From positions 1 to 31,607 of the IMG/VR virus record IMGVR_UViG_3300037011_000258: DNA of 31,607 nucleotides. One strand, given 5' to 3'. This document shows, piece by piece, positions 3,335-31,607 of this stretch. The DNA is from a virus. The position numbers and the translations under genes are program-made. The notes beneath the pieces were generated by a model. That model made no database searches, was not told the origin of the DNA, and saw nothing but the letters and a program-made list of their open reading frames with translations. Within the stretch, counting starts at the first letter, position 1. The number at the start of each line of letters is the position of its first letter.

Positions 3335-3346
3335 GGTCGCTCCTGG

Positions 3347-3931: not shown

Positions 3932-3955
3932 CGACGCACGACCACGTGGTCGCCT

Positions 3956-4135: not shown

Positions 4136-4149
4136 GCAGTCCTCGGTGT

Positions 4150-4896: not shown

Positions 4897-4899
4897 AGG

Positions 4900-10767: not shown

Positions 10768-13707
10768 CTACCTTCTACCCTGCGAAGTTCCAGCCAAATC
10801 GTGCAGCATCCCGCCGATCTCCTTCAGCCGGGCTTCCAGCCGCCGATCCCCCTGGAGCAGCTTCTCCAACTTCCCCTCGGCCCGCTTCTCCGTCTCGCGG
10901 TGCGACCCCCGGAACAACTCCTGCTCGGTGATCGGCCCCTTCTTCCGCAACCGCCCCCGCTGCCGCGTCTCCGTCACGAAAGCTGCCGCCAGCCGCCGCT
11001 TCGACTCCTCCGGGGCACCCGCCTCGTCTTCGGGAGGGGGCTCACCCTCGGCCCCCGGCGGAGGACCGAACTGGTCGTTGATGTCCGCCTCGGCCTCGGC
11101 TTGGGCCATCGACATCTTCTTCTGCGCGGCCGACTCCGCCTCGCTCTGCGTTTCGGAGTCGCGCATCACGTCGCCCTTGCGCTGCTTGATGATGGTCTCG
11201 ACCTCCGTGTCGTTCAGCCCGAACACGTTCGTCAAGATCCAGTTGAGCGACACGAAGTCCCGCATCCGGTTGGCGAGGTCCGCCCGTGCGTTCCGCACTT
11301 CAAGCTGCGCCAGCTCGAAGATGCTGGAGGGGACCGTCATCACCAAGTCCCACTCGGTCGCCTCGGGGTCGATGTTCAACGCCGACAGGTGGACGCGCCC
11401 GACCTTCGCCATGCCGGTGCGGATGGCCCGCTGGAGGCGCAGCACTGTCCGGGCGAAGCGCACGTCCTCCGAGGACAGCACCGCGCGCGCGACGCCCTCC
11501 TCCTGCCCCATGTACGCCTTCGGCACCTTGATGGCGGCGAACAGCTTGTCGCGGAAATACTCGATGTCGTCCATGTGCTGCCAGGACGGACTCCCGAGCA
11601 CCTCGATGCGGGTGCCGTCAGCCCCGGCCCGGGTGGGCACCCAGAAGTCGTCGTCCTGGGACAGCGGCTCCCACTTGAGGTCGAGCTTCCCGGTGGTGGG
11701 GTTGTAGAACTTGCGCTTCTTGTGCTGCTGCCGGATGCGATTGACCTGGGCCAGCGCCTCGTGGGGCGGGAGGTCACCCACGTCCACGTAGAAGGCGTAC
11801 CGCTCGGGGGCGCGCTGGAGGCGGAAGATGAGGGCGGCGTCTTCAAGGAGCATCAGCCGCTTCCAGATCCAGCGGGCGGGCTCCAGCACCGAGTAGCCGT
11901 AGAGGCTGCGGCGGTGCTTGCCGCGCAGGCGGAAGTGGGTCACCTCCCAGCCTTCCAGCGCCGCGATCTTCTCCAAGCCCCCGAGCCCGGCGCTCTTGCC
12001 GAGGTTCCCTTGGGCCTGCGCCGTCCGCATCGCCAGGATCTGCTGGAACTCCTGCGGGGAGTTGTGAACTACCACTCCGTCCGCCAAGAAGTTGTGGGCC
12101 TCGTCGTCAACCTCCAGATCGTAGACCTCCGCGTCCTCATAGTAGGAGATGCTGAGAACGCTCTCAGCCACGAAGGACTGCTCGAACTTCCGGTCGCTGT
12201 AGGTGACGTTGAAGCAGGGGAGCTGCGACCGGATGGCCTTCCCGTTGACGACCGTGCCCGGCTTGCGCTGCCGCCGCCCGATGTTGCCGCAGTAGTACCC
12301 CAGACCGTCGATCAGGTTCTTCAGGTCACGAGCAAGGTCGTAGTTGGCGATCTCGAAGTGGTGCCTGAGCTGCCGCGACGGCTGATGGTTCACCCAACCG
12401 TCAGCATCCATGAACCCCGTCAAGAAGGCTTCACGGTGCTCCTCGGGGAGCCCGTACACCCACCCCGGCACCCGCTTCTTGTCGCAGCCAGGAATCCATC
12501 CCAGCGCCAGCAAGAGCCGGGACAACTGCACTGAATCCGCACGAGAGGCGTATCCGTCCCGAACCTCAACCACCGTAGGCTCGACCCCCAACGCACGGAA
12601 CAGCCCGTCGTAGTAGTCGTTCAGCTCGGGGTAGACCCCACGCGCAAACGACACCCTGCGAGGCTCCAGCCACCCATCCCCCAGCAGGAACCCGAACAAC
12701 CGGCAGAAGTCCGGCGTGGGGCGCGAGGGCAGGTCGAGCTTGGTCGGGGAACCCCTGTCACCCCACTCCTGCGTGAACGGGTCGTTCTTCCAGATGGCCG
12801 ACCACTCCGGCACCTCGCCCTTGGTCATCCGGGTGCCGATCACCAGCTTCGACGTGCGCGTGTAGTCGATGTTCCGCTTCTCCCCCTGAAAGCGGACGAT
12901 CTTCAGATCCTTGACCTTCACCCACGACCGCGCCCCGTCGGCCTCAACCAACACCGGGTGGTCCTCGGTCAGATGAACCTCGCGGTGCAACGTCCGCACC
13001 TTGAACACACGCTTGGTGCCGTTGGTGTGGCGCTTCTTCACGCGCAGCGGGACCGGGCGGTCGTCCTTGTACCCCAGCACCACCTTCCCGTCCTCGAACT
13101 CCTGAATCTCCCGCAGCCCGTCCACCCCCCACACCCGCGAACCGCGCGCGAGGCAGTAGCCGAACCGCCCCTTGAAGTCCTGCACGAAGCCGAACAGCTC
13201 CCCCTTCGGCCCCTCGATGCGGCGGACGGTCGGCGGCGGCAGGAAGTTCAGGCCGCGCACCCCATCCTGCGTGACCAGGATCTCCTCGAAGTCGTTGCCG
13301 TACTTGACGAGGGTGCGGGCAATCTCCCACACGTCCTCGTCGGCGCGCAGCGTCCGGTGGTACAGGTCGTCGAGCAACTGCTCGATGTTGCGGTCCCGCG
13401 CCTCGACCCACAGCGTGCGCTTGAGCTGCGTGTCGGGAACCGTGGCGTCGTCGGCGTAGATGTCGATGGCGGCCGACAGCTCGGGGTAGTCGTCCATCTC
13501 CTCGTAGTCGACGAAGCGACTGAGGAGGTCGTGCTCCAGCCGCAGGTAGTCGGAGATGACATCGTACCCGTACGCCTGGAGGATGTCGAAACCGCTGACC
13601 GGATAGCTGGAGGCCGAGGCCCCCTTCGCCATCTGGTAGGCGAGGTTCTCCTTGTCGGCCTTGAAGAACTCGCGGATTCGCTTGCCAACGTCCGATACCC
13701 AGCCCAC
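10768..13707 (-). CDS. Portal protein (gp20-like) interrupted by an intein
   Basis: This 979-codon precursor contains a 614-residue portal protein and a 365-residue intein (residues 185-549). The portal forms the dodecameric channel at the head vertex through which DNA is packaged. N-extein features include YGYDVISDYLRLEHDLLSRF, then EMDDYPELSAAIDIYADDAT, typical of gp20-type portals (acidic PELSAAIDIYADE block). The C-extein holds RWIWKRLMLLEDAALIFRLQ, then RAPERYAFYVDVG, then SQDDDFWVPTRAGADGTRIE, also gp20-like. The C-terminus is acidic then basic. The start is GTG with GAGG a few bases upstream, one base after the preceding stop. Splicing would join FGY to SPQEF. It follows TerL and a small gene in the usual packaging order. 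Confidence 0.85.
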   Translation of the reverse strand: MGWVSDVGKRIREFFKADKENLAYQMAKGASASSYPVSGFDILQAYGYDVISDYLRLEHDLLSRFVDYEEMDDYPELSAAIDIYADDATVPDTQLKRTLWVEARDRNIEQLLDDLYHRTLRADEDVWEIARTLVKYGNDFEEILVTQDGVRGLNFLPPPTVRRIEGPKGELFGFVQDFKGRFGYCLARGSRVWGVDGLREIQEFEDGKVVLGYKDDRPVPLRVKKRHTNGTKRVFKVRTLHREVHLTEDHPVLVEADGARSWVKVKDLKIVRFQGEKRNIDYTRTSKLVIGTRMTKGEVPEWSAIWKNDPFTQEWGDRGSPTKLDLPSRPTPDFCRLFGFLLGDGWLEPRRVSFARGVYPELNDYYDGLFRALGVEPTVVEVRDGYASRADSVQLSRLLLALGWIPGCDKKRVPGWVYGLPEEHREAFLTGFMDADGWVNHQPSRQLRHHFEIANYDLARDLKNLIDGLGYYCGNIGRRQRKPGTVVNGKAIRSQLPCFNVTYSDRKFEQSFVAESVLSISYYEDAEVYDLEVDDEAHNFLADGVVVHNSPQEFQQILAMRTAQAQGNLGKSAGLGGLEKIAALEGWEVTHFRLRGKHRRSLYGYSVLEPARWIWKRLMLLEDAALIFRLQRAPERYAFYVDVGDLPPHEALAQVNRIRQQHKKRKFYNPTTGKLDLKWEPLSQDDDFWVPTRAGADGTRIEVLGSPSWQHMDDIEYFRDKLFAAIKVPKAYMGQEEGVARAVLSSEDVRFARTVLRLQRAIRTGMAKVGRVHLSALNIDPEATEWDLVMTVPSSIFELAQLEVRNARADLANRMRDFVSLNWILTNVFGLNDTEVETIIKQRKGDVMRDSETQSEAESAAQKKMSMAQAEAEADINDQFGPPPGAEGEPPPEDEAGAPEESKRRLAAAFVTETRQRGRLRKKGPITEQELFRGSHRETEKRAEGKLEKLLQGDRRLEARLKEIGGMLHDLAGTSQGRR
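12061..13155 (-). mobile_element. Portal intein with in-frame LAGLIDADG endonuclease
   Basis: This self-splicing element covers portal codons 185-549. It begins with Cys1 (CLARGSRVWG). It has the block B motif HLTEDHPVLV around residue 250 and ends with the C-terminal blocks AEVYDLEVDDEAHNFLADGV then VVHN, followed by Ser as the +1 nucleophile. Between the halves are two LAGLIDADG motifs in the same frame: LFGFLLGDGWL (about 337-347) and FLTGFMDADGWV (about 428-439), marking a homing endonuclease. All splicing residues (Cys1, block B His, penultimate His, terminal Asn, +1 Ser) are present, so activity is expected. It is a conventional large intein, unlike the one in TerL. Confidence 0.92.
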
Positions 13708-14068: not shown

Positions 14069-17000
14069 CTACCTCGGGGACCAACCGCTGCCCCAGTCGT
14101 CACTGCCCCCGGAGCCTACCAGAAACGGGGGCAGTACGTCACGGTTGTTCATCGCCTCGGGGTTCCCCGCCAGCGCCGCTTGGCGCTGTTCGTCCATCCA
14201 CACCTCGCCCGTCATCCCGCCCGTGCCGCGCAAGATCGGGAGGGGCTGCGACACCTGCTTCTGGGACAGGGTGTAGAGGCAGCCCGCCACCGCATCGGCC
14301 ACGTCCTTGGTGCCGTGCGCCGGGTGGTCGACCTTGTTCTTCTCGCGGATGTGCTCGACCGTGCGTAGCTCGTCGATCAGCGGCGGGTAGTTGTAGTAGA
14401 GGACGCGGTTCTCGTAGAGCGCCGTCTTGAGGTTGTCGTAGGGCTCGATGTGGGTATCGACGCTGAGCCGCGCCGAGGTGTAGCCCTTCTTCGACAGTTG
14501 CTGGATGGCGTCCGCCGACTGGAAGGAGTCGAGCGTGACCGAGGTAATGAGGAAACCGTGGGCCGTCAGGTCGTAGACGAACTGCCGCACGTCCCCCAAC
14601 TCGATCTCGCCCCCGACCGGCGGCACGATGCGAAGGAGGAAGTCCACGATGTAGAGCGGGGCCCGCTCCATGAACTCGCGGCCCCCTTCCACCCGCCGCA
14701 CCACGTCCTTGAAGCCGCCGATGTGCGCCATGCAGAGGCCCGTGGCGTCGCCGGACAGGCTCGGGTCGATGTGGACGTGCCGCGCCGCCGTCGGGTTCAG
14801 GAGAGGGCGCAACCGCTTGAACGACACCCCGCCGGGGTTGCGCGCCGTGCTCTCCTTGACCAAGTGGTCCCACAGCATCTGCCCCGGCTTCGACGGGTCG
14901 TGGACCAGCTTGCTGAAGGGGTGGATGCGGGTGAGGTCGATGGCCTCCTCGATCTTCTCGCGCCGCTGGATGTAGGGCGAGATCGCGACCGTCGCCACCC
15001 CCGCCAGGTCGCGCAGCGACCCCTCCAGGTCCCGCTCGAAGTCGGCCCGGAAGTCCTCGGGCACGTCGATGATCACCGTCTCCTCGGGCAGCTTGGCCCG
15101 GAGCGCCTCCACCTCCTCGTTGGGCACGATCTTGGAGGGAATCGTCTCGTTGCCGCACAGCACCCAGAACTTCTGGGTGGTGTAGTAGGCTTCCGGCTTC
15201 ACCCCCCACAAGGGGTAGTCGCGCACGAACACCGTGGGGTCGTTCCGAGCCTCACGAACGCGCTGCGCCGTGAAGTCGTGGCTGGTGCGCTTCGACGACA
15301 CGATGAACAGGATGCCCGGCAGCCGCCCCTGCCGCTGGAAGCGCGACTTCATGCGCCGCTGGATGGCCGCGTACAGCGTGTCCGCCCGGCTCGTGTGCTC
15401 CCACCGCATCCCGGCCGCCCGCCGCTGCTGCGGCTGGGGCATGAAGTTGGTGTTGTGAACTAGGACGCCATCGGCGATGAAGCACTCGTAGCCGGGGACG
15501 CTGACATCGTAGGTAGGGAGCACACCCAACCTTTTCTTGGACACGACGCGGGCCACAGTGAGCGTTCGTCCCAGACCACATACTCCCAGTCGCGCCTCGC
15601 GCAGTAGCGCCGAACGGCGAGCATCTTGGCCTTCTCCCTCGGATGGTTCATGTACCCCCGAGGCTTGACCTCGATCACCAGCACACTCCCGTTCGCACGA
15701 GCCACCACAAAGTCCGGCAGCGTCCACCGCTTCCGCCCCTCGAAGGTGTAGCGCACCGCCAGCTTCTCGTACTCGAAACTCAACACCCCCGGAGACTGCT
15801 CCATCAACTCCACCGCCCGTAGCTCCCAGTCGCTCCGGTATCCGATCTTCCCTGCCTTCTTCGTCTCGACATATCCACGGTAGCGAAAGTCCCCGCGCTT
15901 GATCTTCCAGACGTTCGCCTCGCTGATACGCCTCCGCGACTCGTCCGTGTGCCGAAAGACCCGCGTGCGATTGCGCTCCGCCAAGACGCGCTTGAACTCC
16001 TCGGTGTGCATCGGTCGGCCCTGTCGAACCTCGGACATCTTGCGCCGCGTCTCTGCCGACGCCTTGCGCCCCCGGTGGGCCTTTCCGATGCGTGCCTTCT
16101 CCGCCGGAGTCCGCTGTATCCCGTGTTGGGGGTTCTCCGGCCCGACCATACGCGGCGGCCCCGGATGCTCCCCCGCCGAAATCAGGTCCGTCATCTTCTG
16201 TGAGGCGGCCTGTCGTCGCTCCTCCGTCCACCCCGAGGACCGTTGGGAGAACCGCCCCTCCTGCCACCGCTGCCGCAGCTTCTCCGCGTGTGCCTTTTTG
16301 CGCTCCTCCGTCCATCGGGGCATAGGCCACCACCTCCTCACCATCCATAATACCAGACATGGTGATAAAGCGGAAGACCCCGTTCCGACGCACAGCCACG
16401 GGGTGCGTCCCCGACGCACGAAGCCTGCTACCGTTATCCAACACCAGCTCGAAGCACTCCTGCTCCGTAGAAGACTTGAAGAACGCCTGCGCGTAGACGG
16501 AGCAGTTGCGGTGGAAGTCGAAGGTCACCACCACGGCTTCTCCGACGCGGCACAACTCGTCCACCCGAGCCTCACGGCCGTCGGCCAGCAAGACCTTCGC
16601 GTCGCCAACCAAGCACTCGTCCATCAGCGCCGAGATGATGTTGAGGCCGAGCGCCGAGGTGTCCGAAGTCGCCCTGGCCGCCACCCAGACGTTGCTCGGG
16701 AAGCGCAGCTCCTTCTTGGTCGCCTCGAAGGGGAAGTGCTCCTTGAAGTAGGGGCTGGCCTTGATCTTGGTCGCGACGTTCTCGAAGACGACCTTCACCG
16801 CCAGCGCCTCGCTGACGGACAGGTTGACGATGGAGATGTTGGTGTCGCGGCCGAGGCCGAAGCTGTCGTGCGGGCTGGTCATGCAGGACAGCTCGTAGAG
16901 GATGCGACAGATGCCGATGGACGCGAAGAAGGTCTTGCCCCAGCCGATGGAGCCCGAGAGGATGCACTCGTGGTAGTCCCCCGACATCAGGTCGGTGAGA

Positions 17001-17287
17001 TCGTCGAGCAGCTTGGGGTAGATGTTGTCGCAGGTGTGGCCGAGGTAGTAGGGGTCGAGGCAGAACGTCCGCATGTCCACGGGCGTCCGCTTGTACTCCG
17101 CGTTGCCCAGGAGCTGAAGGAGCTTCTTCTCAGGAGAGGCCGCCGCCGGCGTCGACAACTCTTGGAGCAGGATCTCCAAGGTTTCGCGCTCCGCCGGGTT
17201 GAGCCCCGCCAAGTCCTTCTTCAGGAGCCCGGCAGCCTCCTCCGGCGTGCGCTGACTCCACGCGCGCCCATCCTTCTGGACGATCAT
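14069..17287 (-). CDS. terL: Terminase large subunit (gp17-like) interrupted by an intein
   Basis: This 1072-codon precursor gives a 684-residue terminase after removal of intein codons 225-612. TerL is the ATP-driven DNA packaging motor and headful nuclease. The ATPase domain has Walker A SGSIGWGKTFF (about 111-121) and Walker B IISALMDE (217-224). The nuclease domain has the metal-binding pattern HVHIDPSLSGDATGL, ITSVTLDSFQSADAI and KDVADAVAGCLY, an RNase H-like Asp triad. The intein sits immediately after the Walker B DE, so unspliced protein should be inactive. The gene overlaps the putative small terminase by 4 bases. The frame is open for all 1072 codons, although roughly 245 codons in the middle of the intein resemble no protein and overlie another gene. 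Confidence 0.92.
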   Translation of the reverse strand: MIVQKDGRAWSQRTPEEAAGLLKKDLAGLNPAERETLEILLQELSTPAAASPEKKLLQLLGNAEYKRTPVDMRTFCLDPYYLGHTCDNIYPKLLDDLTDLMSGDYHECILSGSIGWGKTFFASIGICRILYELSCMTSPHDSFGLGRDTNISIVNLSVSEALAVKVVFENVATKIKASPYFKEHFPFEATKKELRFPSNVWVAARATSDTSALGLNIISALMDECLVGDAKVLLADGREARVDELCRVGEAVVVTFDFHRNCSVYAQAFFKSSTEQECFELVLDNGSRLRASGTHPVAVRRNGVFRFITMSGIMDGEEVVAYAPMDGGAQKGTRGEAAAAVAGGAVLPTVLGVDGGATTGRLTEDDGPDFGGGASGAAAYGRAGEPPTRDTADSGGEGTHRKGPPGAQGVGRDAAQDVRGSTGPTDAHRGVQARLGGAQSHAGLSAHGRVAEAYQRGERLEDQARGLSLPWICRDEEGREDRIPERLGATGGGVDGAVSGGVEFRVREAGGALHLRGAEAVDAAGLCGGSCERECAGDRGQASGVHEPSEGEGQDARRSALLREARLGVCGLGRTLTVARVVSKKRLGVLPTYDVSVPGYECFIADGVLVHNTNFMPQPQQRRAAGMRWEHTSRADTLYAAIQRRMKSRFQRQGRLPGILFIVSSKRTSHDFTAQRVREARNDPTVFVRDYPLWGVKPEAYYTTQKFWVLCGNETIPSKIVPNEEVEALRAKLPEETVIIDVPEDFRADFERDLEGSLRDLAGVATVAISPYIQRREKIEEAIDLTRIHPFSKLVHDPSKPGQMLWDHLVKESTARNPGGVSFKRLRPLLNPTAARHVHIDPSLSGDATGLCMAHIGGFKDVVRRVEGGREFMERAPLYIVDFLLRIVPPVGGEIELGDVRQFVYDLTAHGFLITSVTLDSFQSADAIQQLSKKGYTSARLSVDTHIEPYDNLKTALYENRVLYYNYPPLIDELRTVEHIREKNKVDHPAHGTKDVADAVAGCLYTLSQKQVSQPLPILRGTGGMTGEVWMDEQRQAALAGNPEAMNNRDVLPPFLVGSGGSDDWGSGWSPR
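15460..16323 (-). CDS. Nested homing endonuclease: NUMOD3-like repeats + PD-(D/E)XK nuclease
   Basis: This 287-residue protein lies wholly inside the TerL intein but in the +1 frame. Residues 1-140 hold NUMOD3-like DNA-binding repeats: WTEERKKAHAEKLRQRW, GWTEERRQAASQKM, SAETRRKMSEVRQGRP and TDESRRRISEANV. Residues about 160-250 form a PD-(D/E)XK nuclease: YRSDWE (E167), LPDF (D204) and VIEVKP (E218, K220), like the YRSxWE type of TnsA or Vsr-like nucleases. Its ATG overlaps a Tyr codon of the intein and has AGGAGGT 8 bases upstream. Homology ends near residue 252, where the intein C-half begins; the last 35 residues are a frame shadow ending at TAG 15460. It probably drives homing of the intein. 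Confidence 0.82.
   Translation of the reverse strand: MPRWTEERKKAHAEKLRQRWQEGRFSQRSSGWTEERRQAASQKMTDLISAGEHPGPPRMVGPENPQHGIQRTPAEKARIGKAHRGRKASAETRRKMSEVRQGRPMHTEEFKRVLAERNRTRVFRHTDESRRRISEANVWKIKRGDFRYRGYVETKKAGKIGYRSDWELRAVELMEQSPGVLSFEYEKLAVRYTFEGRKRWTLPDFVVARANGSVLVIEVKPRGYMNHPREKAKMLAVRRYCARRDWEYVVWDERSLWPASCPRKGWVCSLPTMSASPATSASSPMAS
16332..16338 (-). promoter_or_regulatory. Shine-Dalgarno of nested endonuclease gene
   Basis: AGGAGGT lies 8 bases before the ATG at 16323, inside terminase-frame codons for EEVV. It decides the start of the nested gene and suggests translation by internal initiation rather than by frameshifting from TerL. The same bases are also needed to encode the conserved end of the intein N-half, so the match could be partly fortuitous. 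Confidence 0.65.
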
Positions 17288-18021
17288 CCGGCGGCCTCGT
17301 GCGGCCCCTCCGCCTCCAGCGCATCCGGGTCGTCCGATGCGACCACGTGGTCGCCCTCCTCCTCTACCTCACCCTCCTCCACCAGCCCATGCTCGGGGTC
17401 ACCCGCCGTCAGCAGTTGCTGCGCCAGCGCCAGCACCTTCCGCCGCGACTCGGGATCGGACAGTACCTGCCCCACCGCCGGGCTGCCGTAGTGCCCCGCC
17501 ACGTCCGCGATGACCTTGGCGTCGATCTCCACCTGGCCGATGTGCCGCTGCGTCAGGCCGAGGTCCATCTTCAACTCGGCGTAGGTAGCGAGGATGTCCT
17601 TCGCCTGCTTGATCTCCTGCGTCATCGAGGGCATCAGCTTGCCCACGTTCTTCTCGATGTTGAGGTCGATCTGGATGCGGCCCATCTGCACCCGGTAGAG
17701 GTTCTCCAACTCCACCAGCTCATTGAGCCCCTGTCGCACCTCGTCCGCCGCCTTGTTGAACAACTGCGGCAGCCGCTGCGCGATCAGCTCGCCCCGAGGC
17801 ATCGCCTGCCGGTAGTCGTTCACCATCGCGATCAGCGCCCCCCGCGTGAGGTCGCCCCCCTCCTGCTGGTCGTCTTGGATGTACCGGGCCACTTGGGTCG
17901 AGGGCCAGCCCTCCACCACCCGCTTGTGAACCTCGGGAAAGCAGCGCAACGCCTTCAACCGCTTGAAGCGGTCGCTCTCCCGGGTCACTGGACGAACGCG
18001 ACGATTACTTGACATGGGCAC
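17284..18021 (-). CDS. Putative terminase small subunit
   Basis: This 245-residue protein overlaps the TerL start by 4 bases (ATGA), the usual place for TerS, which recognises viral DNA and starts packaging. N-terminal residues 15-70 suggest a helix-turn-helix-like unit: RLKALRCFPEVHKRVVEGWP followed by STQVARYIQDD, the pattern 'P-S-T-xx-VA-xx-I' typical of recognition helices. The middle is long helices (residues about 85-190), suited to the ring oligomerisation of TerS. The C-terminus is acidic and disordered. I do not recognise a specific TerS family, so the call rests on position and architecture. The start could be GTG 18021 or ATG 18015; GGAGG lies 4 and 10 bases before them respectively. 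Confidence 0.62.
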   Translation of the reverse strand: MPMSSNRRVRPVTRESDRFKRLKALRCFPEVHKRVVEGWPSTQVARYIQDDQQEGGDLTRGALIAMVNDYRQAMPRGELIAQRLPQLFNKAADEVRQGLNELVELENLYRVQMGRIQIDLNIEKNVGKLMPSMTQEIKQAKDILATYAELKMDLGLTQRHIGQVEIDAKVIADVAGHYGSPAVGQVLSDPESRRKVLALAQQLLTAGDPEHGLVEEGEVEEEGDHVVASDDPDALEAEGPHEAAG

Positions 18022-18409
18022 CTAGCCTCCGGGCTACCAGCACCAATCGTATCATCTGGTAAGCCTTCGGCCAATCCAGCACTTGCACCCCCGCGAACGG
18101 CACCAAGGGCACCCCGAGCCCGTGGTCGTCGATGTAGAGGTCAGCCCGGAGCTTGCCCTGGTCCCCGTAGTCGATGGCATCATAGGGGATGCCGTGATTG
18201 TCGAGGGCGTCCTTCATCTGCTGGAGCCCCCGCGCCCGGTCAGCAGGCTGGTCAGGGAACTCGTGGCTGGCCCGCGCCGACCAGATGATGATCGTGTGCC
18301 CGTCCGCCTTCAGCCGCTGCACGTGCTCGGCCGCCCCCGGCACCACCGGCCCCACCCCCGGCCACTCGTTCAGGAACAGCGTCTCGTCGAAGTCGATGCA
18401 GAGCCTCAC
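18005..18409 (-). CDS. HAD-superfamily phosphatase-like protein
   Basis: This 134-residue single-domain HAD protein has motif I CIDFDETLF (D6 nucleophile, D8 acid/base), motif II IIIWSAR (S44), and motifs III/IV GKLRADLYIDDHG (K86, D94, D95). All catalytic residues are present. Small HAD proteins of this type are common in phages; substrates may be nucleotides, polynucleotide 3' ends or small metabolites. There is no cap domain, which suggests large or polymer substrates. It is coupled to the Ddl-like gene by a 4-base ATGA overlap and overlaps the putative TerS gene downstream, so it may belong to the KamA/Ddl-like pathway or be a separate nucleic-acid repair function. Confidence 0.82.
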   Translation of the reverse strand: MRLCIDFDETLFLNEWPGVGPVVPGAAEHVQRLKADGHTIIIWSARASHEFPDQPADRARGLQQMKDALDNHGIPYDAIDYGDQGKLRADLYIDDHGLGVPLVPFAGVQVLDWPKAYQMIRLVLVARRLGAHVK

Positions 18410-19437
18410 GCCCGCCTCCGTCGTTCCGCGCGGTAGACCGCTCCGGCCACGATCTTCCCCACGAGGTCCGCGTGCGATAGCCCCAACTGCTGCGCCATGA
18501 TGACGAGGTCGCTGTTGACCGGGTCGAGCCCCGGCAACGGGTTGATGTCGAGCAGGTACGGGCGACCGGCGACGGAGAGGCGGAAGTCGATGCGCGCCAC
18601 GTCCCGACAGCCCAGCGCGTGGAACGCGCGCAGCGCCGCTTGCGTGGTGTCATCCAGCGCGTCCCCGTTGAAGCGCGGCGGCGTGAAGTAGTCCACCACC
18701 CGCAGGTAGTCCCGCTTCACCTCCAGCCCGTACACCTGCCACTGTTCCCCGGACTTGGGCGCGATCTCCATCACCCCCACCACCTCCGGGGGGTCGCCCG
18801 CGATGCCCACCGTCACCTCGGGGCCGTCGATGAACTCCTCCACCAGCGCCGGTTGGTGGTACTCGTCCCGGTTCCGCACCAGCATCTCTTGCAGTCGGTG
18901 GTCGTCCTCCACCACGGACAACCGCCGCACCCCTCGGGAGGAGCCCTCGTGCAGGGGCTTGACGATGAGCGGGAACTCCAGATCGAGGGCGTAGCGCCGC
19001 TGCACCGCCGCCTCGGGGTCACCTTCCACGAAGCCTCGGGGCACCACCACTCCAGCCGCCGCTGCCAGTGTCCTCGTGACCCCCTTGTCCAAGCTGGCGG
19101 AGAGCGCCAACGGATCGGAGCCCACGTAGGGGATGCCGAACATCTCCAGCAGCGCGGGCACCTGCGCCTCGCGCGACCGTCCGCCGAAGCCTTCGGCGAT
19201 GTTGAAGACGAAGTCCACGGGTGCCACCCGGTACTCGTTCAGCACGTAGTCGAGCAGGCCGTAGCCCCACCCCAGGTCCACTACGTCATGCCCCAGGGCG
19301 TGGAGCGAGCCGAAGATCGCGTCCACCGTGGCGGCCCGGTCGTACTCCTCCAAGGCGTCGTCGGTACAGGAGGCTCCCCGGTCGTGCAGGAACTTCGCCA
19401 TCTCCTCCTTCTCGGTGTAGGTCAGCCCGATCTTCAT
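18406..19437 (-). CDS. Ddl-like ATP-grasp ligase (D-Ala-D-Ala ligase fold)
   Basis: This 343-residue enzyme has the order of a D-alanine-D-alanine ligase: LLEMFGIPYVGSDPLALSAS (97-116) with SLDKGVTRTL, the ATP-binding loop FPLIVKPLHEGSSRGV (155-170, K160), VEEFIDGPEVTVGI, VARIDFRL (D284) and metal-binding LLDINPLPGLDP (D297, N299). These enzymes join two amino acids via an acyl phosphate. The N-terminal substrate motif is NIAEGFGGRSREAQVP rather than the HGxxGEDG loop of true Ddl, so the substrate probably differs from D-Ala. GGAGG precedes the ATG by 5-6 bases; an open-frame extension upstream is a shadow of kamA. It is coupled to kamA and to the HAD gene by 4-base overlaps, suggesting ligation of a KamA product. 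Confidence 0.85.
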   Translation of the reverse strand: MKIGLTYTEKEEMAKFLHDRGASCTDDALEEYDRAATVDAIFGSLHALGHDVVDLGWGYGLLDYVLNEYRVAPVDFVFNIAEGFGGRSREAQVPALLEMFGIPYVGSDPLALSASLDKGVTRTLAAAAGVVVPRGFVEGDPEAAVQRRYALDLEFPLIVKPLHEGSSRGVRRLSVVEDDHRLQEMLVRNRDEYHQPALVEEFIDGPEVTVGIAGDPPEVVGVMEIAPKSGEQWQVYGLEVKRDYLRVVDYFTPPRFNGDALDDTTQAALRAFHALGCRDVARIDFRLSVAGRPYLLDINPLPGLDPVNSDLVIMAQQLGLSHADLVGKIVAGAVYRAERRRRA

Positions 19438-20627
19438 GTCCCCCTCCGCCACTGGTCCGTGTAGGAACACCGACAGTCGGTCCCCTCCTCCGGCTGCTCG
19501 TAGGTATATGGGTGCCCCTCGTAGTTGCGAAGCTCGACCAAGCGGCTGCCCACGTTGGTCACGTAGGTCGGAGCCACTGGGATCTTGCCACCACCGCCGG
19601 GGGCGTCGATGACGAAGGTGGGCACCGCGAAGCCGCTGGTGTGGCCGCGTAGCTGCTCCATCACCGCGAGCCCCACGCCGACCGGGGTGCGGAAGTGCTC
19701 GGTGCCAGCGACGAGGTCGCACTGGTAGAGGTAGTACGGGCGCACGCGCGCGCGAACCAACTCATGGACCAGCTCCTTCATCACCACCGGGTCACTGTTG
19801 ACCCCCCGCAGCAGCACGCTCTGGTTCCCGAGGGGGATGCCCGCGCTCACGATCTTCTGGCAGGCGGCCCGCGCCTCGGGGGTCAGTTCCTTGGGGTGGT
19901 TGAAGTGGGTGTTGATCCAGAGCGGGTGGTGCTTAGCGAGCACCTTCACCAGATCGTCGGTGATGCGCTGGGGGAGGAACATCGGCATCCGCGTCCCGAG
20001 GCGAACAATCTCCACCGAGGGGACCGACCGCACCCGCTCCAGCACGTAGTCGAGGTTGGCGTCGCTCATGGTCAGCGGGTCGCCGCCGCTGATGAGCACG
20101 TCGCGGACCTCGGGGTGGGCGCGCAGGTAGGTGAGGGCCTGGTCGAACTCCGCGTGCGGCAGCACCTCGTTGGCTTGGGCGGTGAGGCGCTTCCGGGTGC
20201 AGAAGCGGCAGTAGCTGGCGCACATATTGTTGACCAGCAGCAGCACCCGGTCGGGGTAGCGGTGGATGAGGCCGGGGGCGACCCGATACTGCTCCTCGGC
20301 CAGCGGGTCCTCCTCGCCCGTGGAGCGGGTTTCTTGCTGGGTCGGGACGAACTGCATCCTGATAGGACAGGCTGCGTCGTGCGGGTCCATCAAGGAGGCG
20401 AGGTAGGGCGTGATTGCCATGCGGAAGTGCTCGCGCGCAGCGAGCAGCCCGTCTCGCTCAGCGTTGGTGAGCCGGAGAACTTGGCTCAGCTCAGCCAGCG
20501 TCGTGATGCTGTGCTTGAGCTGCCAAGTCCAACTCGCCCACTCCTCCTCGGTGACATTCTGGTAGAGGGGGATCGTGTTGTAGTGCCGCCCCCGACGGCA
20601 CAAGGAAGGTTCCGCGCCAGGCTCCAT
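19434..20627 (-). CDS. kamA: Lysine 2,3-aminomutase family radical SAM enzyme
   Basis: This 397-residue protein is near full length for KamA enzymes, which convert L-lysine to L-beta-lysine (some relatives use other amino acids) with SAM, a [4Fe-4S] cluster and PLP. The radical SAM motif is CASYCRFC (C136, C140, C143). Further hallmarks are DVLISGGDPLTMSD, GTRMPMFLPQRIT, LGNQSVLLRGVN, YYLYQCDLVAG (D304), LRGHTSGFAVPTF and DAPGGGGKIPV (D341, K348 as PLP lysine). The Asp pair that binds the substrate amine is present. The C-terminus has DCRC (C385, C387), part of the zinc site; the Cys usually in VNDC is absent (VNSDP). It starts at ATG with AGGG upstream and overlaps the Ddl-like gene by 4 bases. 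Confidence 0.93.
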   Translation of the reverse strand: MEPGAEPSLCRRGRHYNTIPLYQNVTEEEWASWTWQLKHSITTLAELSQVLRLTNAERDGLLAAREHFRMAITPYLASLMDPHDAACPIRMQFVPTQQETRSTGEEDPLAEEQYRVAPGLIHRYPDRVLLLVNNMCASYCRFCTRKRLTAQANEVLPHAEFDQALTYLRAHPEVRDVLISGGDPLTMSDANLDYVLERVRSVPSVEIVRLGTRMPMFLPQRITDDLVKVLAKHHPLWINTHFNHPKELTPEARAACQKIVSAGIPLGNQSVLLRGVNSDPVVMKELVHELVRARVRPYYLYQCDLVAGTEHFRTPVGVGLAVMEQLRGHTSGFAVPTFVIDAPGGGGKIPVAPTYVTNVGSRLVELRNYEGHPYTYEQPEEGTDCRCSYTDQWRRGT

Positions 20628-20660: not shown

Positions 20661-22415
20661 TCAGCCCTTGGCAGCCCACGAGTCGCCCGAGGCTGTTTCA
20701 ACCACGACGGGGACGGCCTTGAAGAAGGGCTGGGCTCCCTCCACCATGCCGTCGTGCAAATCCTTCTCCGTCGCCTTGATCAGCTCGGGGTCGTCGTCCA
20801 CTTCCAGCAGGATCTCGTCGTGGACCATGTGGACCATCTTCGCCCGTCCACCATACTGCTTGAGCTTTTGGTAGACAAGAGGCAAAGCGGCCTTCAGCCC
20901 ATCGGCGTTGGTCGATTGCACCGGGTGGTTGAAGTATTCGTTGTACTCGTCCCCCTCCAAGTAGCGCAAGCGGCCCCCGAGGGACCGCGCGATGTGCCGC
21001 TGCATCTCCACGTGCTTCACGTGGTCGTGCCACGCCTCCACGCCGGGGTACAGCGCGAAGTACGCCTCGCGGAACTTCTCGGCCTGGTTCAGCGTCATGT
21101 GAACGCCGTAGTCCGACTGCGCGTAGACGACCAGCTTCTTCGCCTGCATCCCGAAGCAGAAGCCGAAGTTGACCGGCTTCGCCATCTGCCGGTACTCCTT
21201 CGTCACCTGCTCCGGGGGGCACTTCATCATCGCCGCCGCCGTCTTGCGGTGGACATCGCCGCCGGTCTGGTACGTCTCCAGCAGCACCTTGTCCCGGGAG
21301 ATTTCCGCCACCACCCGCAACTCGATCTGGCTGTAGTCCGCCCCCACGATAAGATGCCCCGGCTCCGCCCGGAAGCACGCCCGGAAGACCTTCTCCCGAG
21401 GGATCGCCTGGAGGTTGGGGTTCGAGGTCGCGTAGCGCCCCGTCAACAGCATCGGGTAGTAGTCCGGGTGAATCCGGTTGGTCCGGGGGTCGATGAAGGA
21501 AAGGTACTCCTCCCCGAAGGCGTCGAGCTTCTTCTGCACCTTGCGGTACTGGAGCAGCCGCTGGATGACCTTGCTCTTGCCCGCGATCATCGCCAGCGTG
21601 CCCTTGTTGGTGTCGGGGATGTCGAAGCCGAGCTTGCGGATCGACTTGAGCATCTGCGGCGGCGAGTCGATGTTGAAGGTCGGGTCGAACCCCGGCAGCA
21701 TCATCTGGTTGGTGGGCGAGGGCAGCTCCCGCAACAAGCGGCGGTGCAGGTCTTCCGCCTCGCCCTGGTTCCGAGCCGTCAACGCCCGCCACATCGCCTT
21801 GTCGAGGTAGAACCCCGCCAGCTCGATGGCGGCTTCGGGAAGGAGCGCCCCGAACTCGATGGCCGCGATGCGGTTCAACCCGGCCGCCGCCAGCTTGGGC
21901 TTCATCACCTGGCGGAGCGCCCCCATGTAGGCCACGTCGCTGACGGCATAGCGAAGCTGCTGGTAGGTCAGCTCCTCGGCCCAGTTGGACCCGCCCAAGT
22001 CCTCCGTCGGGGGTGGCTCGGACAGCTCGCGGCTGTAGATCGAGTAGAGGTCATGGTGGTAACCCTTCCCGTTGTGGATGAGGGCGCTGGCGCGGAAGGT
22101 GTCGAACAGCCGCTTCAACTCGATGCCGTACTTGTGCAGCAGCCACTTCTGCTCGAACTTGAGGTTCTGGCCGACGATTACCCCCGGGTAAGTACGAAGC
22201 ACCGTGTCGATGGGGCCGAGGGTCTTGGTCTTGAATAGGTCGATGACGTAGAGGCGGAAGTCGCAGCAGAACTGCATCAGCCGGATCTCACCGTCCCACG
22301 GGGACTTGGCCGTGGTTTCGATGTCGAGGCCGATCCACTCCTGCGCCTCGATGTCGCGGGCCAAAGCGGCGAGGCCCTCCTCGGTGGTGATGAGGGTGTG
22401 CGAGAGCAGCGCCAT
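20661..22415 (-). CDS. polA: DNA polymerase I-type (family A) with 3'-5' exonuclease
   Basis: This 584-residue replicative-type phage polymerase lacks a 5' nuclease domain. Exonuclease: Exo I IGLDIETT (D31, E33), Exo II GQNLKFE (N84, E88 where Asp is usual), Exo III YAVSD (Y156, D160). Polymerase: TGRYATSNPNLQAIP, motif A VGADYSQIELR (D360), O-helix RQMAKPVNFGFCFG (R409, K413, F417, F421) and motif C MVHDEILLEV (H532, D533, E534). By alignment with E. coli Pol I, F417 equals F762 and F421 replaces Y766. AGGA lies 4 bases before the ATG. The gene is 7 bases after a small unknown gene and is followed by kamA. Family A replication is unlike T4, which uses family B. Confidence 0.95.
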   Translation of the reverse strand: MALLSHTLITTEEGLAALARDIEAQEWIGLDIETTAKSPWDGEIRLMQFCCDFRLYVIDLFKTKTLGPIDTVLRTYPGVIVGQNLKFEQKWLLHKYGIELKRLFDTFRASALIHNGKGYHHDLYSIYSRELSEPPPTEDLGGSNWAEELTYQQLRYAVSDVAYMGALRQVMKPKLAAAGLNRIAAIEFGALLPEAAIELAGFYLDKAMWRALTARNQGEAEDLHRRLLRELPSPTNQMMLPGFDPTFNIDSPPQMLKSIRKLGFDIPDTNKGTLAMIAGKSKVIQRLLQYRKVQKKLDAFGEEYLSFIDPRTNRIHPDYYPMLLTGRYATSNPNLQAIPREKVFRACFRAEPGHLIVGADYSQIELRVVAEISRDKVLLETYQTGGDVHRKTAAAMMKCPPEQVTKEYRQMAKPVNFGFCFGMQAKKLVVYAQSDYGVHMTLNQAEKFREAYFALYPGVEAWHDHVKHVEMQRHIARSLGGRLRYLEGDEYNEYFNHPVQSTNADGLKAALPLVYQKLKQYGGRAKMVHMVHDEILLEVDDDPELIKATEKDLHDGMVEGAQPFFKAVPVVVETASGDSWAAKG

Positions 22416-22421: not shown

Positions 22422-22709
22422 CTACAACAGCCCGGCGTCAGCCAAGCCGTTCAGGTAGTCGGCGGCACGCCGCCACGCCACCTCGGCCTGGCCGACGGCG
22501 GCCACGAAATCCTCCCACGCCCCGCCCGTGGAGAAGAACGCGACCGCCGCGATGCTGGCCGCCGCCTCGGCCTTGATGACGGCGTCCCACAACTTGGGCT
22601 CCTGCTCCGTGAGCCACGCCACCCCGGCGGCCCAGCCCATCTGCGGCAGCTTGTCCACGCGGTCGTGCATCTCGCGGAGAACCGCGAGCACCTCCTCGCG
22701 CACAGTCAC
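22422..22709 (-). CDS. Small helical protein, unknown
   Basis: This protein of about 93-95 residues fills the gap between the S66-like gene and the polymerase. It overlaps the S66 stop by 4 bases (GTGA). The likely start is the GTG at 22703, which has GGAG 8 bases upstream; the GTG at 22709 is an alternative. The sequence is helical: REEVLAVLREMHDRVDKL, GVAWLTEQEPKLWDAVIKAE, an Ala-rich helix, then AWRRAADYLNGLADAGLL. No family or membrane signature is convincing. Function unknown. Confidence 0.68.
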   Translation of the reverse strand: MTVREEVLAVLREMHDRVDKLPQMGWAAGVAWLTEQEPKLWDAVIKAEAAASIAAVAFFSTGGAWEDFVAAVGQAEVAWRRAADYLNGLADAGLL

Positions 22710-23632
22710 CACTCCACCGCGACTTCTCCATCTCCGATGGTGAGCGTGGCCGGAACCCCCAGCGGCACCAACACCCCCAACTTCGAGCGCCCCCACGGCA
22801 CGCCCCCCACCACCGGACACGTGGGCGGGAGCGAGTGCTCCATGATGGTGAAGATGTCGGGGAAGGGCATGGCGGGGCCGTCGATGTCCTCCACCCCCGG
22901 GCCCTCGACCTCGACCTCCCCGAACGCGATGCCCGCCACCGCGTCCAACTCCCGCGCCAGCTCGATGCGCTGCATCAGGAACCAGAACAGGTACTCGTGC
23001 TCCCCCGGCGTGTTCCAGCCGTGCTCCTCCAACAGCAGGATGGCCCCGGCGAGCGGCGGGCAGTAGGGCGTCCCGAGTAGCTGCGACACCACCGCGAAGT
23101 TTCCCGCCAGCAAGGGTCCCTTCACCTCCCCAGGACGAACCACGTCGGCGTACTCGCGGATGCTCGACACGGAGGAGCGGTGCTGGAAGATGCACAGCGC
23201 CTGTTCAAGATCCTTAGCCTCCTCGTCGCTCACGCACGCCACCGTGGGGCCGTAGTAGGCCGGGCGGCCCCACTTGACTGCCTGCCACAGCAGGAAGGTG
23301 CTGTCGGAGAAACCCACCAGCGGGGTGGGCGGCACCTTCTCCTGCATCTGGTCGGCGTAGAACTGCTCCAGCCGAGGGAGCAGCCCGTAGGCCCCCATCC
23401 CTCCGTCGGCGAACCAGATCACGTCCAGCGTGGGGTCGCGCAGCATCGCCACCAGCTCGTCCCCCCGCTCGTTCACGCGCAGGTAGGGCGAGGACCGGGG
23501 CGGCCGGGACTTCAACTCCGGCCCCAGCACCACCTCGCAGTCGAGACTCTCCAGCACCTCGATGCCCCGCGCCACCGACGCCATGTCCGGGCGGTCGCTC
23601 GGACACGGGATGCCCACACGCATCTTCTTCAT
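22706..23632 (-). CDS. S66 peptidase-like protein (LD-carboxypeptidase/MccF type), altered His
   Basis: This 308-residue protein follows the S66 family layout: WFADGGMGAYGLLPRLE (73-89), nucleophile elbow LVGFSDSTFLLWQA with S109, GPLLAGNFAVVSQLLGTPY (172-190), ILLLEEHGW with the catalytic Glu candidate at 202/203, and the C-terminal GGVPWGRSKLGVLVPLG (276-292). S66 enzymes are Ser-Glu-His hydrolases that trim peptidoglycan tetrapeptides or detoxify microcin C-type peptide-nucleotides. In the usual GxPxGH motif the His is Arg here (R282; codon CGC, one change from CAC), so the triad appears incomplete. No signal peptide is visible, so it acts inside the cell. It has its own promoter with a near-leaderless ATG. 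Confidence 0.82.
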   Translation of the reverse strand: MKKMRVGIPCPSDRPDMASVARGIEVLESLDCEVVLGPELKSRPPRSSPYLRVNERGDELVAMLRDPTLDVIWFADGGMGAYGLLPRLEQFYADQMQEKVPPTPLVGFSDSTFLLWQAVKWGRPAYYGPTVACVSDEEAKDLEQALCIFQHRSSVSSIREYADVVRPGEVKGPLLAGNFAVVSQLLGTPYCPPLAGAILLLEEHGWNTPGEHEYLFWFLMQRIELARELDAVAGIAFGEVEVEGPGVEDIDGPAMPFPDIFTIMEHSLPPTCPVVGGVPWGRSKLGVLVPLGVPATLTIGDGEVAVEW

Positions 23633-23638: not shown

Positions 23639-23667
23639 ACCGTATCAGGGACTTAGCAGGTTGTCAA
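23639..23667 (-). promoter_or_regulatory. Promoter with perfect -35, near-leaderless start
   Basis: On the minus strand, TTGACA (23667-23662) is followed after exactly 17 bases by TACGGT (23644-23639), which keeps the TA and final T of the -10 consensus. The ATG of the S66-like gene starts 6 bases after this box, so the transcript would be essentially leaderless, though a GGTGAG SD-like site overlaps the -10. The -35 box contains the TGA stop of the upstream ATP-grasp gene. The layout matches the promoter at 10723-10752. Confidence 0.55.
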
Positions 23668-25019
23668 GGACGAACGGGCGGGCGCAGCGGCGAGGTCCAG
23701 TTGTGCCGGGTGGACCGGGCGAGGTCGCTGATCCAGCCCTCCCCCAGCACGTAGCGGTAGATGGTGTCCACCCGCTTCTGCAACTCCTTCAAGATGCGCG
23801 GGCTGTCCACGATGGCCTGGTTGATGTGCGCCTCGTCCGCCAAGTCCTCCACCAGCTTCACCGCGTCCGGCAGCGTGTCGCCGATGCCCACGTAGCCGCC
23901 CCGACGCGGGGGCTTCGGCTGCACCGCCAGGTTCAGCCAGCGACCCCCCGCCATGCGCGCCGGCCACGTCGGGAAGAAGGACACCAGCTCGTCGATGAGC
24001 GGCAGCTCCCGGCCCGGCGGCAGCGTGATCTCCAGCGGCACCGTCAGATCACCGTCCTCCATCCGCACGTTGACGATGGTGGCGACCTTGCCCATGTACC
24101 GCTCGTGGACCGGGATGCCGCTCTTGCCCGTCGCCACCCCCAGCAGCAGCTTGCCGAGGTCCTCGGTGCAGTGGCAGAAGAACTCGGTCATGCCACAGCC
24201 CCACCGAGGGGTCCACTCCAAGTAGTAGAACTTGTCGCCCACCAGCATCCCGTTGATGTCGAACATCCCCCGGTGCTTGGCCTCCTTCAGCCGGGCCGTG
24301 AGCTTCTTCCGGTCGATGAAGCGGTCGCCGGGGATGCGGAGGTCGTAGACGAACCCCCCGTTGGCGTCGTAGCTGACGTACAGGTCACCCACGATCTCCT
24401 CGCCGTTGAACCAGCCCCCCACCGCCACCTCGGTCCCCTCCAGCACCTCTTGGAGGTAGAACCCCTTGCGCTCGCGCCCGAACGGCACCGTCACCGCCAT
24501 GCGCCGTGCGATGTCCACGATGTCGTTCCCCTGCGGGTCCGTGGACACGATGGTCTCGGAGGCGTCCCGCAGCGTCTGGTCGAGCTTCAGCACGTAGGGC
24601 TGTGGGTGGGCCTCGACGTAGTCGGCCAGGTCGTCGGCGCTGTGGAACTCCTTCTGCCACGGCACCAAGATGCCCGCCTCCTTGGCAACCGTGTTCCCGA
24701 AGCCCCGGTCCAGCTCAAGCTGGGTCGCCCACGGCCCCGGCCCGGCCACCGGCACCCCGTGGTCGCGCAGGAACTTGACGACGTGGCCTCGGTGCTCCGA
24801 GCCGGTGATCGTCGCCACGTCCGCCCAGTCGATCCAGCGCATCCAGCCCTCGGGGGCGAGCGTCACCCCCTTCAGCCCAGCGCCCAGGAAGTCGGCAATC
24901 GGCGAGTCGCTGTCCGGCCCCCACACCGTCGCGTAGACCACCTCGTGGCCGTCACGCACCAGCCGCTGCACAATCGGCAGCCCCAGGAACAGGATGTGAT
25001 CGACTACGAGCACTCGCAC
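23664..25019 (-). CDS. PurD-like ATP-grasp ligase of unknown substrate
   Basis: This 451-residue protein starts at GTG with AAGGAG 7 bases upstream (VRVLVVDHILFLGLP). It has the ATP-grasp order seen in glycinamide ribonucleotide synthetase (PurD) relatives: a Rossmann-like N-terminus, VPVAGPGPWATQLELDRGFG (89-108), YVLKLDQTL (142-150, ATP-binding Lys), EVLEGTEVAVGGWFNG (191-206), RGMFDINGMLVG and YYLEWTPRWGCGMTE (266-280). The usual metal-binding ExN is ExT here (E268, T270). A Cys-rich spot (GCG, CHC) lies at about 274-284. Purine synthesis is unlikely, since no other pur gene is near and the N-domain differs; a carboxylate-amine ligase with another substrate fits better. It overlaps the upstream small gene by 16 bases. 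Confidence 0.75.
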   Translation of the reverse strand: MRVLVVDHILFLGLPIVQRLVRDGHEVVYATVWGPDSDSPIADFLGAGLKGVTLAPEGWMRWIDWADVATITGSEHRGHVVKFLRDHGVPVAGPGPWATQLELDRGFGNTVAKEAGILVPWQKEFHSADDLADYVEAHPQPYVLKLDQTLRDASETIVSTDPQGNDIVDIARRMAVTVPFGRERKGFYLQEVLEGTEVAVGGWFNGEEIVGDLYVSYDANGGFVYDLRIPGDRFIDRKKLTARLKEAKHRGMFDINGMLVGDKFYYLEWTPRWGCGMTEFFCHCTEDLGKLLLGVATGKSGIPVHERYMGKVATIVNVRMEDGDLTVPLEITLPPGRELPLIDELVSFFPTWPARMAGGRWLNLAVQPKPPRRGGYVGIGDTLPDAVKLVEDLADEAHINQAIVDSPRILKELQKRVDTIYRYVLGEGWISDLARSTRHNWTSPLRPPVRP

Positions 25020-25309
25020 GGCCTGACTCCTTCCTGCGTGAGCAGGAGCAGCTCCACGCCACACAGCTTTGCGCGACGCCGCACCCGTGGCAAGTCTTGG
25101 GCCGAGCAGCCCGCCACCAGCATCCGCTTGACCACCCGCACCTTACCCTGAATCGGCACCCGCCCACTGAGGAAGCCGAAGCGCCACAAGTCGATGGGTT
25201 CCTCGGAGAGCAGCTTGGAGAAGCTCCCCACTGTCATCCGCAGGGAGGGCAGCACCAAGAAGCAGACCTCACCGGCCGCCGCGTTGGCGGCAAACTCCTT
25301 CACGTTCAC
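25004..25309 (-). CDS. Hypothetical protein, about 101 residues
   Basis: This short soluble protein begins VNVKEFAANAAAGEVCFLVL, continues MTVGSFSKLLSEEPIDLWRF and a basic stretch RVVKRMLVAGCSAQDLPRVR, and ends GVRPCECS. It is of unknown family. GGAG lies 5 bases before the GTG at 25309, better than an upstream GTG at 25327 that would overlap the previous gene. Its 3' end overlaps the ATP-grasp start by 16 bases, so the two are probably translated together, and it may be a partner of that enzyme. Confidence 0.68.
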   Translation of the reverse strand: MNVKEFAANAAAGEVCFLVLPSLRMTVGSFSKLLSEEPIDLWRFGFLSGRVPIQGKVRVVKRMLVAGCSAQDLPRVRRRAKLCGVELLLLTQEGVRPCECS

Positions 25310-29721: not shown

Positions 29722-30435
29722 CTATGGTCCGGCCCACGCGCGCGGGCCCACCGGAGGGGCCTTCCGCAGGACGAGGAAGTAGCTGTGGTTCTTGCGCCCG
29801 TGAAGCTGCTTCAGCATCCGGCTGACGCCGGGGCGCCCGGAGCGCACCACCACGAACAGGTCTTCGCAGAGCCAGCCGAAAGAGGTCAGGTGGTTCAGGA
29901 TCTCCACGTGCGTCAGCCGTTGCCGGTTGGCGCACACCTCATCTTGGCACTTGACGATGTAGATCCCGGTGGGCTTCAGCACCCGCCAGGCTTCCTGGGC
30001 CGCCGCGAAGTACAGCCGCAGCACAGCATCGTGCGCCTCGGCCGCTGCCGGGGCCTCCCGTTGGTTGTTGGCGTAGTAGTGCTCGAAGTTCTGGTGGTCC
30101 TCGTGGGCGTTCTGCCCGCCCGCGTGCATGTACGGCGGGTCGAAGACCGCCCCGTCGAGGGCCCCATCACGGAAGGGGAGATCGCGGGCATCGACACCGT
30201 GGGCCAAGTCGGACGCGATGATGCGGTAGACGCCTCGGGGAACCTGGCGCCAGAACACCCCCTTGCCGTAGGTGGTGTCGGCGATGCGGGCTCCGGGCTT
30301 GAAGTAGAGGGTGAGGATCGTGGGGAACAGGTCGGCGTTCGTCCCGACTTGGGCGCTGAGCACGAGGTCGTTGGAGGGCTCCCCGGCGGGGGAGCGGCGA
30401 CGCTGGGGCTCCAGAGTTTGCAAGGCCGCGTCCAC
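29722..30435 (-). CDS. DNA methyltransferase (DPPY type)
   Basis: This 237-residue SAM-dependent methyltransferase has an ADTTYGKGVFW block (52-62, a motif I variant), IIASDLAHGVDARDLPF (72-88, motif II/III with D76) and catalytic AVFDPPYMHAGG (97-108, motif IV DPPY). The C-terminus HGRKNHSYFLVLRK is typical of phage adenine/cytosine-N4 methyltransferases. It would methylate exocyclic amino groups of adenine, or cytosine N4, in phage DNA, for example to evade restriction. There is no partner restriction nuclease or recognisable target domain. It starts at GTG with GAGG 4 bases upstream, shortly after the ParB-like gene. A longer upstream frame is not needed. Confidence 0.85.
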   Translation of the reverse strand: MDAALQTLEPQRRRSPAGEPSNDLVLSAQVGTNADLFPTILTLYFKPGARIADTTYGKGVFWRQVPRGVYRIIASDLAHGVDARDLPFRDGALDGAVFDPPYMHAGGQNAHEDHQNFEHYYANNQREAPAAAEAHDAVLRLYFAAAQEAWRVLKPTGIYIVKCQDEVCANRQRLTHVEILNHLTSFGWLCEDLFVVVRSGRPGVSRMLKQLHGRKNHSYFLVLRKAPPVGPRAWAGP

Positions 30436-30444
30436 GAGTCCTCG

Positions 30445-31221: not shown

Positions 31222-31235
31222 GAGGCCCTCCCGAA

Positions 31236-31607
31236 CTACAGGATCTCGCGCCCGCCCAGCTCCGGGTCGTTGTCCCACGGCGACTTCCAGTCGAGCGCCG
31301 TCTCCTCGTAGCGGGCCTTGGCCCACGCCCGGTTCGCCAGCTCGACCACGCGACGCATCACGCCGTTGGTGCGGGCGAACAGGTTGACGCTCACCGCGTC
31401 GCGGAAGTCGAGCGCCGCCTCGACCAGGGACTTCTGGTCCTCCCCCGCCTCGGGCATGGAGCCCGCCGCCTTGCGGGACTTCTTGAAGATGACGGTGCCG
31501 AGATCGAGCATGGTGTGGACGCCACCCGGCATCGCCTCGGTCGCTCCCTTGAGCTGGGTGATGAGGGCGGAGTCGTTGGCCCCGCTGATGGGCTCGACCG
31601 GCTTGCC
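31236..31607 (-). CDS. Hypothetical protein, 5' end beyond window
   Basis: The frame is open from the window edge to the TAG at 31236, at least 123 residues; an internal ATG at 31532 has no SD, so the gene most likely continues upstream. The readable part is helical: ISGANDSALITQLKGATEAM, then GVHTMLDLGTVIFKKSRKAA, then DFRDAVSVNLFARTNGVMRR and a Trp-containing acidic C-terminus. No family recognised. It precedes the ParB-like gene by 14 bases and probably shares its operon. Confidence 0.65.
   Translation of the reverse strand, partial: GKPVEPISGANDSALITQLKGATEAMPGGVHTMLDLGTVIFKKSRKAAGSMPEAGEDQKSLVEAALDFRDAVSVNLFARTNGVMRRVVELANRAWAKARYEETALDWKSPWDNDPELGGREIL

Follow-up and report, generated by a model that had tools for sequence, protein, structure and literature searches.

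Why would a phage carry, between its DNA polymerase gene and its putative terS, the gene for a probable enzyme of lysine metabolism, overlapping that of an amide ligase? The question is raised by the virus record IMGVR_UViG_3300037011_000258, a linear fragment of 31.6 kb analysed here over its whole length of 31,607 nucleotides ("the window"), in which three minus-strand genes follow one another at positions 18005-20627:

19434..20627, minus strand: kamA (ATG start, 397 aa), a KamA-family radical SAM/pyridoxal phosphate (PLP) enzyme, putatively of lysine 2,3-aminomutase type
18406..19437, minus strand: Ddl-like ATP-grasp amide ligase of the "lig1" family (ATG at 19437, 343 aa)
18005..18409, minus strand: HAD-type phosphatase-like protein (GTG start, 134 aa)

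As an initial annotation of this DNA had pointed out, the three genes are linked by four-base overlaps, ATGA where the ligase start meets the kamA stop and GTGA where the HAD start meets the ligase stop; the mechanically called ligase open reading frame (ORF) extends to 19722, out of frame over kamA, and the coding start was set at 19437. Phage genes often overlap by four bases, which alone is no evidence for a shared pathway; that evidence is supplied by comparative data. The reading that we favour, with a probability of roughly 0.5, is a beta-lysine amide or peptide pathway in which the product of KamA is a substrate of the ligase, the two genes being cargo in a variable slot between polA and terS. 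KamA would convert L-lysine to beta-lysine; the ligase, spending ATP, would turn a carboxylate into an acyl phosphate and couple it with an amine, beta-lysine being one of its two substrates, and the product would be a small beta-lysyl peptide or amide, presumably put to use during infection. We propose this role for the ligase from its bacterial operon, its Ddl fold, the ATP- and Mg-side residues that it retains and the changes in its D-Ala site.

Active sites of the two enzymes

The window KamA is a member of the KamA family (assigned families: KamA, radical SAM and LAM_C), scoring 352 bits to the TIGR00238 subfamily profile, whose cut-off is 199.2. The annotation had taken it for a lysine-type enzyme, and three lines of comparison agree: the ranking of profiles, the catalytic residues and both lysine-recognition aspartates. 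Among the profiles, that for the lysine enzyme comes first (509.7 bits), ahead of those for glutamate (456.4), arginine (402) and EpmB (246.9). The only relative in the PDB at E <= 0.001 is 2a5h, the solved lysine 2,3-aminomutase (KamA/AblA) of Clostridium subterminale, which is matched with 456 bits and resembles the window protein over most of its length. Cysteines C136, C140 and C143 of the CxxxCxxC motif align to C125, C129 and C132 of 2a5h, the PLP-binding lysine K348 to K337, and D304 and D341 to D293 and D330; two aspartates of lysine 2,3-aminomutase bind the side-chain amine of lysine. The lysine type is thus assigned by residues only, and lysine activity is predicted from homology together with an intact active site.

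The ligase has the whole fold of DdlA and DdlB. It matches Dala_Dala_lig_C (PF07478) with 104 bits, and its AlphaFold model (mean predicted local distance difference test score, pLDDT, 95.7) superimposes on DdlB 8evy with a Z score of 33.4 and a root-mean-square deviation of 2.3 over 298 residues. It nevertheless falls far short of every curated Ddl cut-off, the best score being 148.9 bits against 243. In the alignment, residues on the ATP/Mg side are kept (R282, D284 and K241 take the places of DdlB Arg255, Asp257 and Lys215), whereas positions in the D-Ala site are changed (His63 to Glu82, Leu282 to Asp310). In 53 relatives there is no variation at Glu82, R282 or D284, and conservation of Asp310 and K241 is at least 90%. 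The substrate loop that the annotation had quoted as unlike that of Ddl, NIAEGFGGRSREAQVP, is present as described. These comparisons support a ligase that differs from D-Ala-D-Ala ligase at the alignable substrate-site positions, and the two extra acidic positions, Glu82 and Asp310, would be well matched to a substrate that bears one more amine, beta-lysine for instance.

The bacterial operon

If the two enzymes act together, their genes might be expected to keep company elsewhere, and the annotation had made its functional link between KamA and the ligase depend on this. They do so in bacteria and in one other phage locus (L149). A ligase alignment was run against 84,980 species genomes and the best 80 loci were analysed; this sample leans towards the nearest relatives and underlies every count of bacterial loci given here. 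A KamA homologue is present in the fetched flanks of 49 of these 80, on the same strand in 49 of 49, with a median gap to the ligase of 166 nt and a gap of less than 700 nt in 46; the chance level of such adjacency was judged from the one to three KamA matches found per genome. The ligase loci are spread over phyla that include Chloroflexota, Planctomycetota, Omnitrophota, Margulisiibacteriota, Myxococcota, Acidobacteriota and Bacillota, and carriers of the operon include many bacteria of soil and groundwater. The window ligase is 37-49% identical to the bacterial operon ligases, and the window pair shows the same arrangement, a kamA and a ligase-1 family gene adjacent on one strand, here with a four-base overlap.

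Most of the bacterial kamA-ligase loci have a second Ddl-like ligase downstream, and GNAT models match in 29 loci, some of the GNATs being fused to ligase 2; these proteins probably lengthen the product or cap it. In 20 loci, mostly in Myxococcota (L113, L119, L124, L127, L128, L132, L134 and others), ligase 2 and ligase 1 are fused, and in none of the 20 is kamA adjacent; an S58/DmpA-type peptidase is nearby in 10 loci. KamA was searched for in 12 genomes: L069 and L107 have kamA adjacent to the ligase, L106 has its ligases in tandem but unfused, and the other nine have fusions and no adjacent kamA (L113, L119, L124, L127, L132, L128, L109, L131, L137). All nine fusion genomes have a KamA homologue elsewhere, with a strong match (E about 1e-121 or better) in eight, one of which, that of L109, contains an in-frame stop; the match in L137 is weaker (2e-61, 39% identity). 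Six Myxococcota fusion genomes have two KamA paralogues in tandem away from the ligases.

The operon appears to be uncharacterised: literature searches returned no description of a kamA-ligase-ligase-GNAT operon, and a 2009 amidoligase survey outside that search may mention it. Two known systems come near to it. In the N-acetyl-beta-lysine pathway (AblA plus the GNAT AblB), KamA likewise supplies beta-lysine, but capping is there by the GNAT alone, whereas the partner in the window is an ATP-grasp ligase. In the synthesis of N-acetylglutaminylglutamine amide, an ATP-grasp ligase is fused or linked to a GNAT, there is no KamA and the product is known; this linkage resembles, in architecture, that of ligase 2 in several of the bacterial operons.

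A variable slot and two ancestries

How did the pair come to lie together in a phage? Four further minus-strand genes frame the answer:

20661..22415, minus strand: polA, DNA polymerase A with 3'-5' exonuclease (PF00476, 238.8 bits); upstream border of the slot
17284..18021 (alternative 18015), minus strand: putative TerS, named by position; downstream border of the slot
22706..23632, minus strand: S66 LD-carboxypeptidase-like protein, 308 aa (PF02016/PF17676)
23664..25064, minus strand: PurD-like second ATP-grasp protein, 466 aa (TIGR00877, 33.5 bits, a partial model match)

The polA stop is separated from the kamA start by 33 nt, and at the other end the HAD gene overlaps the putative terS (17284-18015/18021), which is followed by genes for TerL, a T4-type portal, an S77 protease and a Gp23 capsid protein. 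The putative TerS has no Pfam or NCBIfam match and no family with a function; it is conserved beside TerL in related phages at 38-48% identity.

The history of the slot was read from sixteen TerL relatives, where their sequences covered the polA-terS junction. The order polA-terS is common to the related phages, and what lies between the two varies: nothing in, for example, L154, L159 and L161; another gene in L156 and L158; the ligase alone in L153; a PurD-like gene and a HAD gene in L167; and kamA, ligase and HAD in the window. The slot genes of L156 (5537-6085) and L158 (7675-8196) are small, related to each other and carry a zinc-finger-like Cys pattern. In L064/L146, too, the ligase stands alone between polA and terS. 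It also directly precedes terS in a distant phage, L181, and the data allow a tree in which the ligases of the window, L146 and L181 group together (p 0.68). On a 150-row tree the window ligase falls on the ligase-1 side, sister to that of L146 and near planctomycete ligases (SH-like approximate likelihood ratio, SH-aLRT, 95), the planctomycete placing being unstarred in a 72-row tree.

The window KamA has other affinities: grouping it with all the operon KamAs is rejected by the approximately unbiased (AU) test (p 4e-5). Joint transfer of kamA and ligase from a planctomycete operon was also considered and set aside (AU test, p 0.013, for a group chosen after the first tree). By these trees, kamA and the ligase are separate recruitments. 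Since the ligase stands before terS in relatives and in L181, and the window KamA lies outside the operon KamAs, the most likely sequence of events is that the ligase was resident first in the phage lineage, directly before terS, and that kamA arrived separately and later in the same slot. The pairing would then have been reached by separate routes in bacteria, in the window phage and in L149, and nothing speaks more strongly for a shared function.

The HAD protein, which the annotation had counted as a partner in the operon, is probably unrelated cargo. It is of the BT0820 type (NF046079, 45.9 bits, under the cut-off of 165; phrog_1238, 73 bits); a homologue adjoins terS in L167, where there is neither kamA nor ligase, and another related phage has the ligase and no HAD. 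Membership in the pathway is accordingly unsupported.

KamA itself, called unusual for a phage in the annotation, turns out to be common: 48 IMG/VR loci and 21 phage-collection records carry it, the latter including Pseudomonas putida and Vibrio phage isolates and some records that resemble bacterial contigs or prophages. The P. putida phage proteins are annotated "hypothetical protein". Most KamAs of jumbo and other phages (L003-L006, L016-L063) form one clade in the tree; a single clade of all viral KamAs is rejected. No conserved neighbour shared by the stand-alone phage KamAs was found. In Vibrio phage GR7B (L006), kamA adjoins a GNAT gene near queC-type genes, which would suit N-acetyl-beta-lysine; on a Thioflavicoccus mobilis plasmid (L008), kamA and a Ddl-like ATP-grasp gene are convergent, and after the latter come genes for ornithine cyclodeaminase and an SbnA-type diaminopropionate enzyme.

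On the ligase side, a scan of viral contigs with a single ligase sequence gave no matches, and alignment queries were needed. The only other examined phage locus with kamA beside the ligase is L149/L021 (ligase 3181-4200, kamA 4187-5302), in which the gene order differs from that of the window. The phage ligase records that lack kamA are L146/L064, L147, L148, L150, L181 and L182, several of them fragments.

What the pair may make

Several observations weigh against a beta-lysine pathway in this phage. Although TIGR03820 (lysine 2,3-aminomutase) is the best model for the window KamA, the score of 509.7 bits lies just below the curated cut-off of 525.4, the match stopping at model position 370 of 417 and the C-terminus being shorter than in the solved enzyme. 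The bacterial operon usually has a second ligase and often a GNAT; a Pfam scan covering the larger proteins of this 31.6 kb fragment recognised neither. Most phage KamAs have no lig1-type ligase within about 6 kb; kamA accompanies the ligase in only one of the seven other phage ligase records (L149); and in the closest phage relative the 35.9 kb record contains the ligase but lacks kamA, so that the enzyme there must act on a different substrate or on one supplied by the host.

Points of this kind lend themselves to a rival account, in which kamA and the ligase are unrelated cargo, chance neighbours in a hot slot, and KamA acts as the stand-alone phage KamAs do: several relatives have nothing in the slot and others have different genes there, phages commonly have a stand-alone KamA, the ligase occurs alone in a close relative, and the two ancestries differ. 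We regard this as less likely, however, because in several bacterial phyla genes of both families adjoin on one strand as an operon, and they recur side by side in phage L149; that separate lineages should have paired them independently would be difficult to account for without a shared function.

The genes around the ligase suggest another possibility, modification of the host envelope, with the ligase adding beta-lysine or making a dipeptide for the surface or wall and the S66 protein acting on wall peptides. An S66 LD-carboxypeptidase-like gene does lie near the ligase in the window and in a related phage, the fold is related to that of Ddl, and in phage L148 a lig1-family ligase is beside ORFs that resemble, by eye, glycosyltransferases and methyltransferases. 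The PurD-like gene, the S66 gene and the ligase are conserved together in L064/L146 (the PurD-like homologue in L064 is 47% identical), and in Margulisbacteria and Omnitrophota loci L078 and L118 the order is kamA, ligase 1, an ATP-grasp-like protein and S66, the third protein being so labelled because one member, L104, has a weak match in Pfam. In the window S66 protein, however, Ser109 and Glu202 of the Ser-Glu-His triad align while the His position is Arg, and in the L064 homologue it is Val. Descent of the PurD-like protein and the additional Omnitrophota ATP-grasp protein (c9) from one ancestor was considered and set aside, as BLASTP showed no similarity. Since these two are unrelated by BLASTP and there is no catalytic His in the S66 proteins of the phages, the occurrence of both near the ligase in phages and bacteria is a parallel rather than demonstrated homology of systems. 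The PurD-like protein might, at a guess, replace the second ligase in the window phage.

A cell-wall precursor, one of the products offered in the annotation, is also argued against by the bacteria that have the operon: no match to MurG was found in 11 of 11 operon-bearing Dehalococcoidia genomes (their completeness not being reported), whereas Myxococcus, two Omnitrophota and 14 of 14 control genomes were matched. As MurG is unmatched there, a peptidoglycan precursor is an unlikely product in Dehalococcoidia. MurG was likewise unmatched (E <= 0.001) in two Gemmataceae genomes, G017 (L076) and G018 (L101), for which divergence, incompleteness or real absence are possible. With the D-Ala-site positions of the window ligase altered as well, the envelope explanation is improbable.

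Beta-lysylation of elongation factor P (EF-P) or another protein, a further suggestion of the annotation, has a precedent in the EpmA/EpmB system, where a KamA-family enzyme provides the beta-lysine of EF-P, but is very doubtful here: the window KamA scores 246.9 bits to the EpmB profile TIGR03821, against a cut-off of 369.3 and 509.7 bits to lysine 2,3-aminomutase, the ligase is a Ddl-type ATP-grasp enzyme rather than an EpmA-like paralogue of lysyl-tRNA synthetase, and the scan of window proteins recognised no EF-P. Synthesis of a nucleotide carrying an amino acid, to be used in DNA hypermodification, for which one could cite the polA gene, a methyltransferase-like ORF with a DPPY motif and the PurD-like ATP-grasp protein in the same record, is just as hard to credit, given that no nucleotide hydroxymethylase, kinase or transferase of a known pathway was recognised among the window proteins scanned and that the bacterial kamA-ligase operon occurs outside any phage context.

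Other features of the window are inteins in both TerL (approx. 15449-16615) and the portal (approx. 12058-13155), whereas L064 has no intein in its TerL and the portal ORF of L181 also appears to have one; at 29722-31326, the DNA methyltransferase-like ORF, its motif read by eye, adjoins a ParB_N-domain protein.

A beta-lysine pathway of two enzymes thus remains the reading that we prefer. More tentatively, the phage may make a beta-lysine-containing peptide or conjugate by the chemistry of an uncharacterised bacterial operon, one that occurs even in Dehalococcoidia with no recognised MurG; we know of no phage-encoded small molecule of this kind described before. The beta-lysine peptide is predicted from the operon and can be sought directly. 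The window has also brought to light a kamA-ligase-ligase-GNAT operon that is widespread in uncultured bacteria, and phage KamA, common but usually unexplained, becomes testable through the overlapping partner enzyme that it has here.

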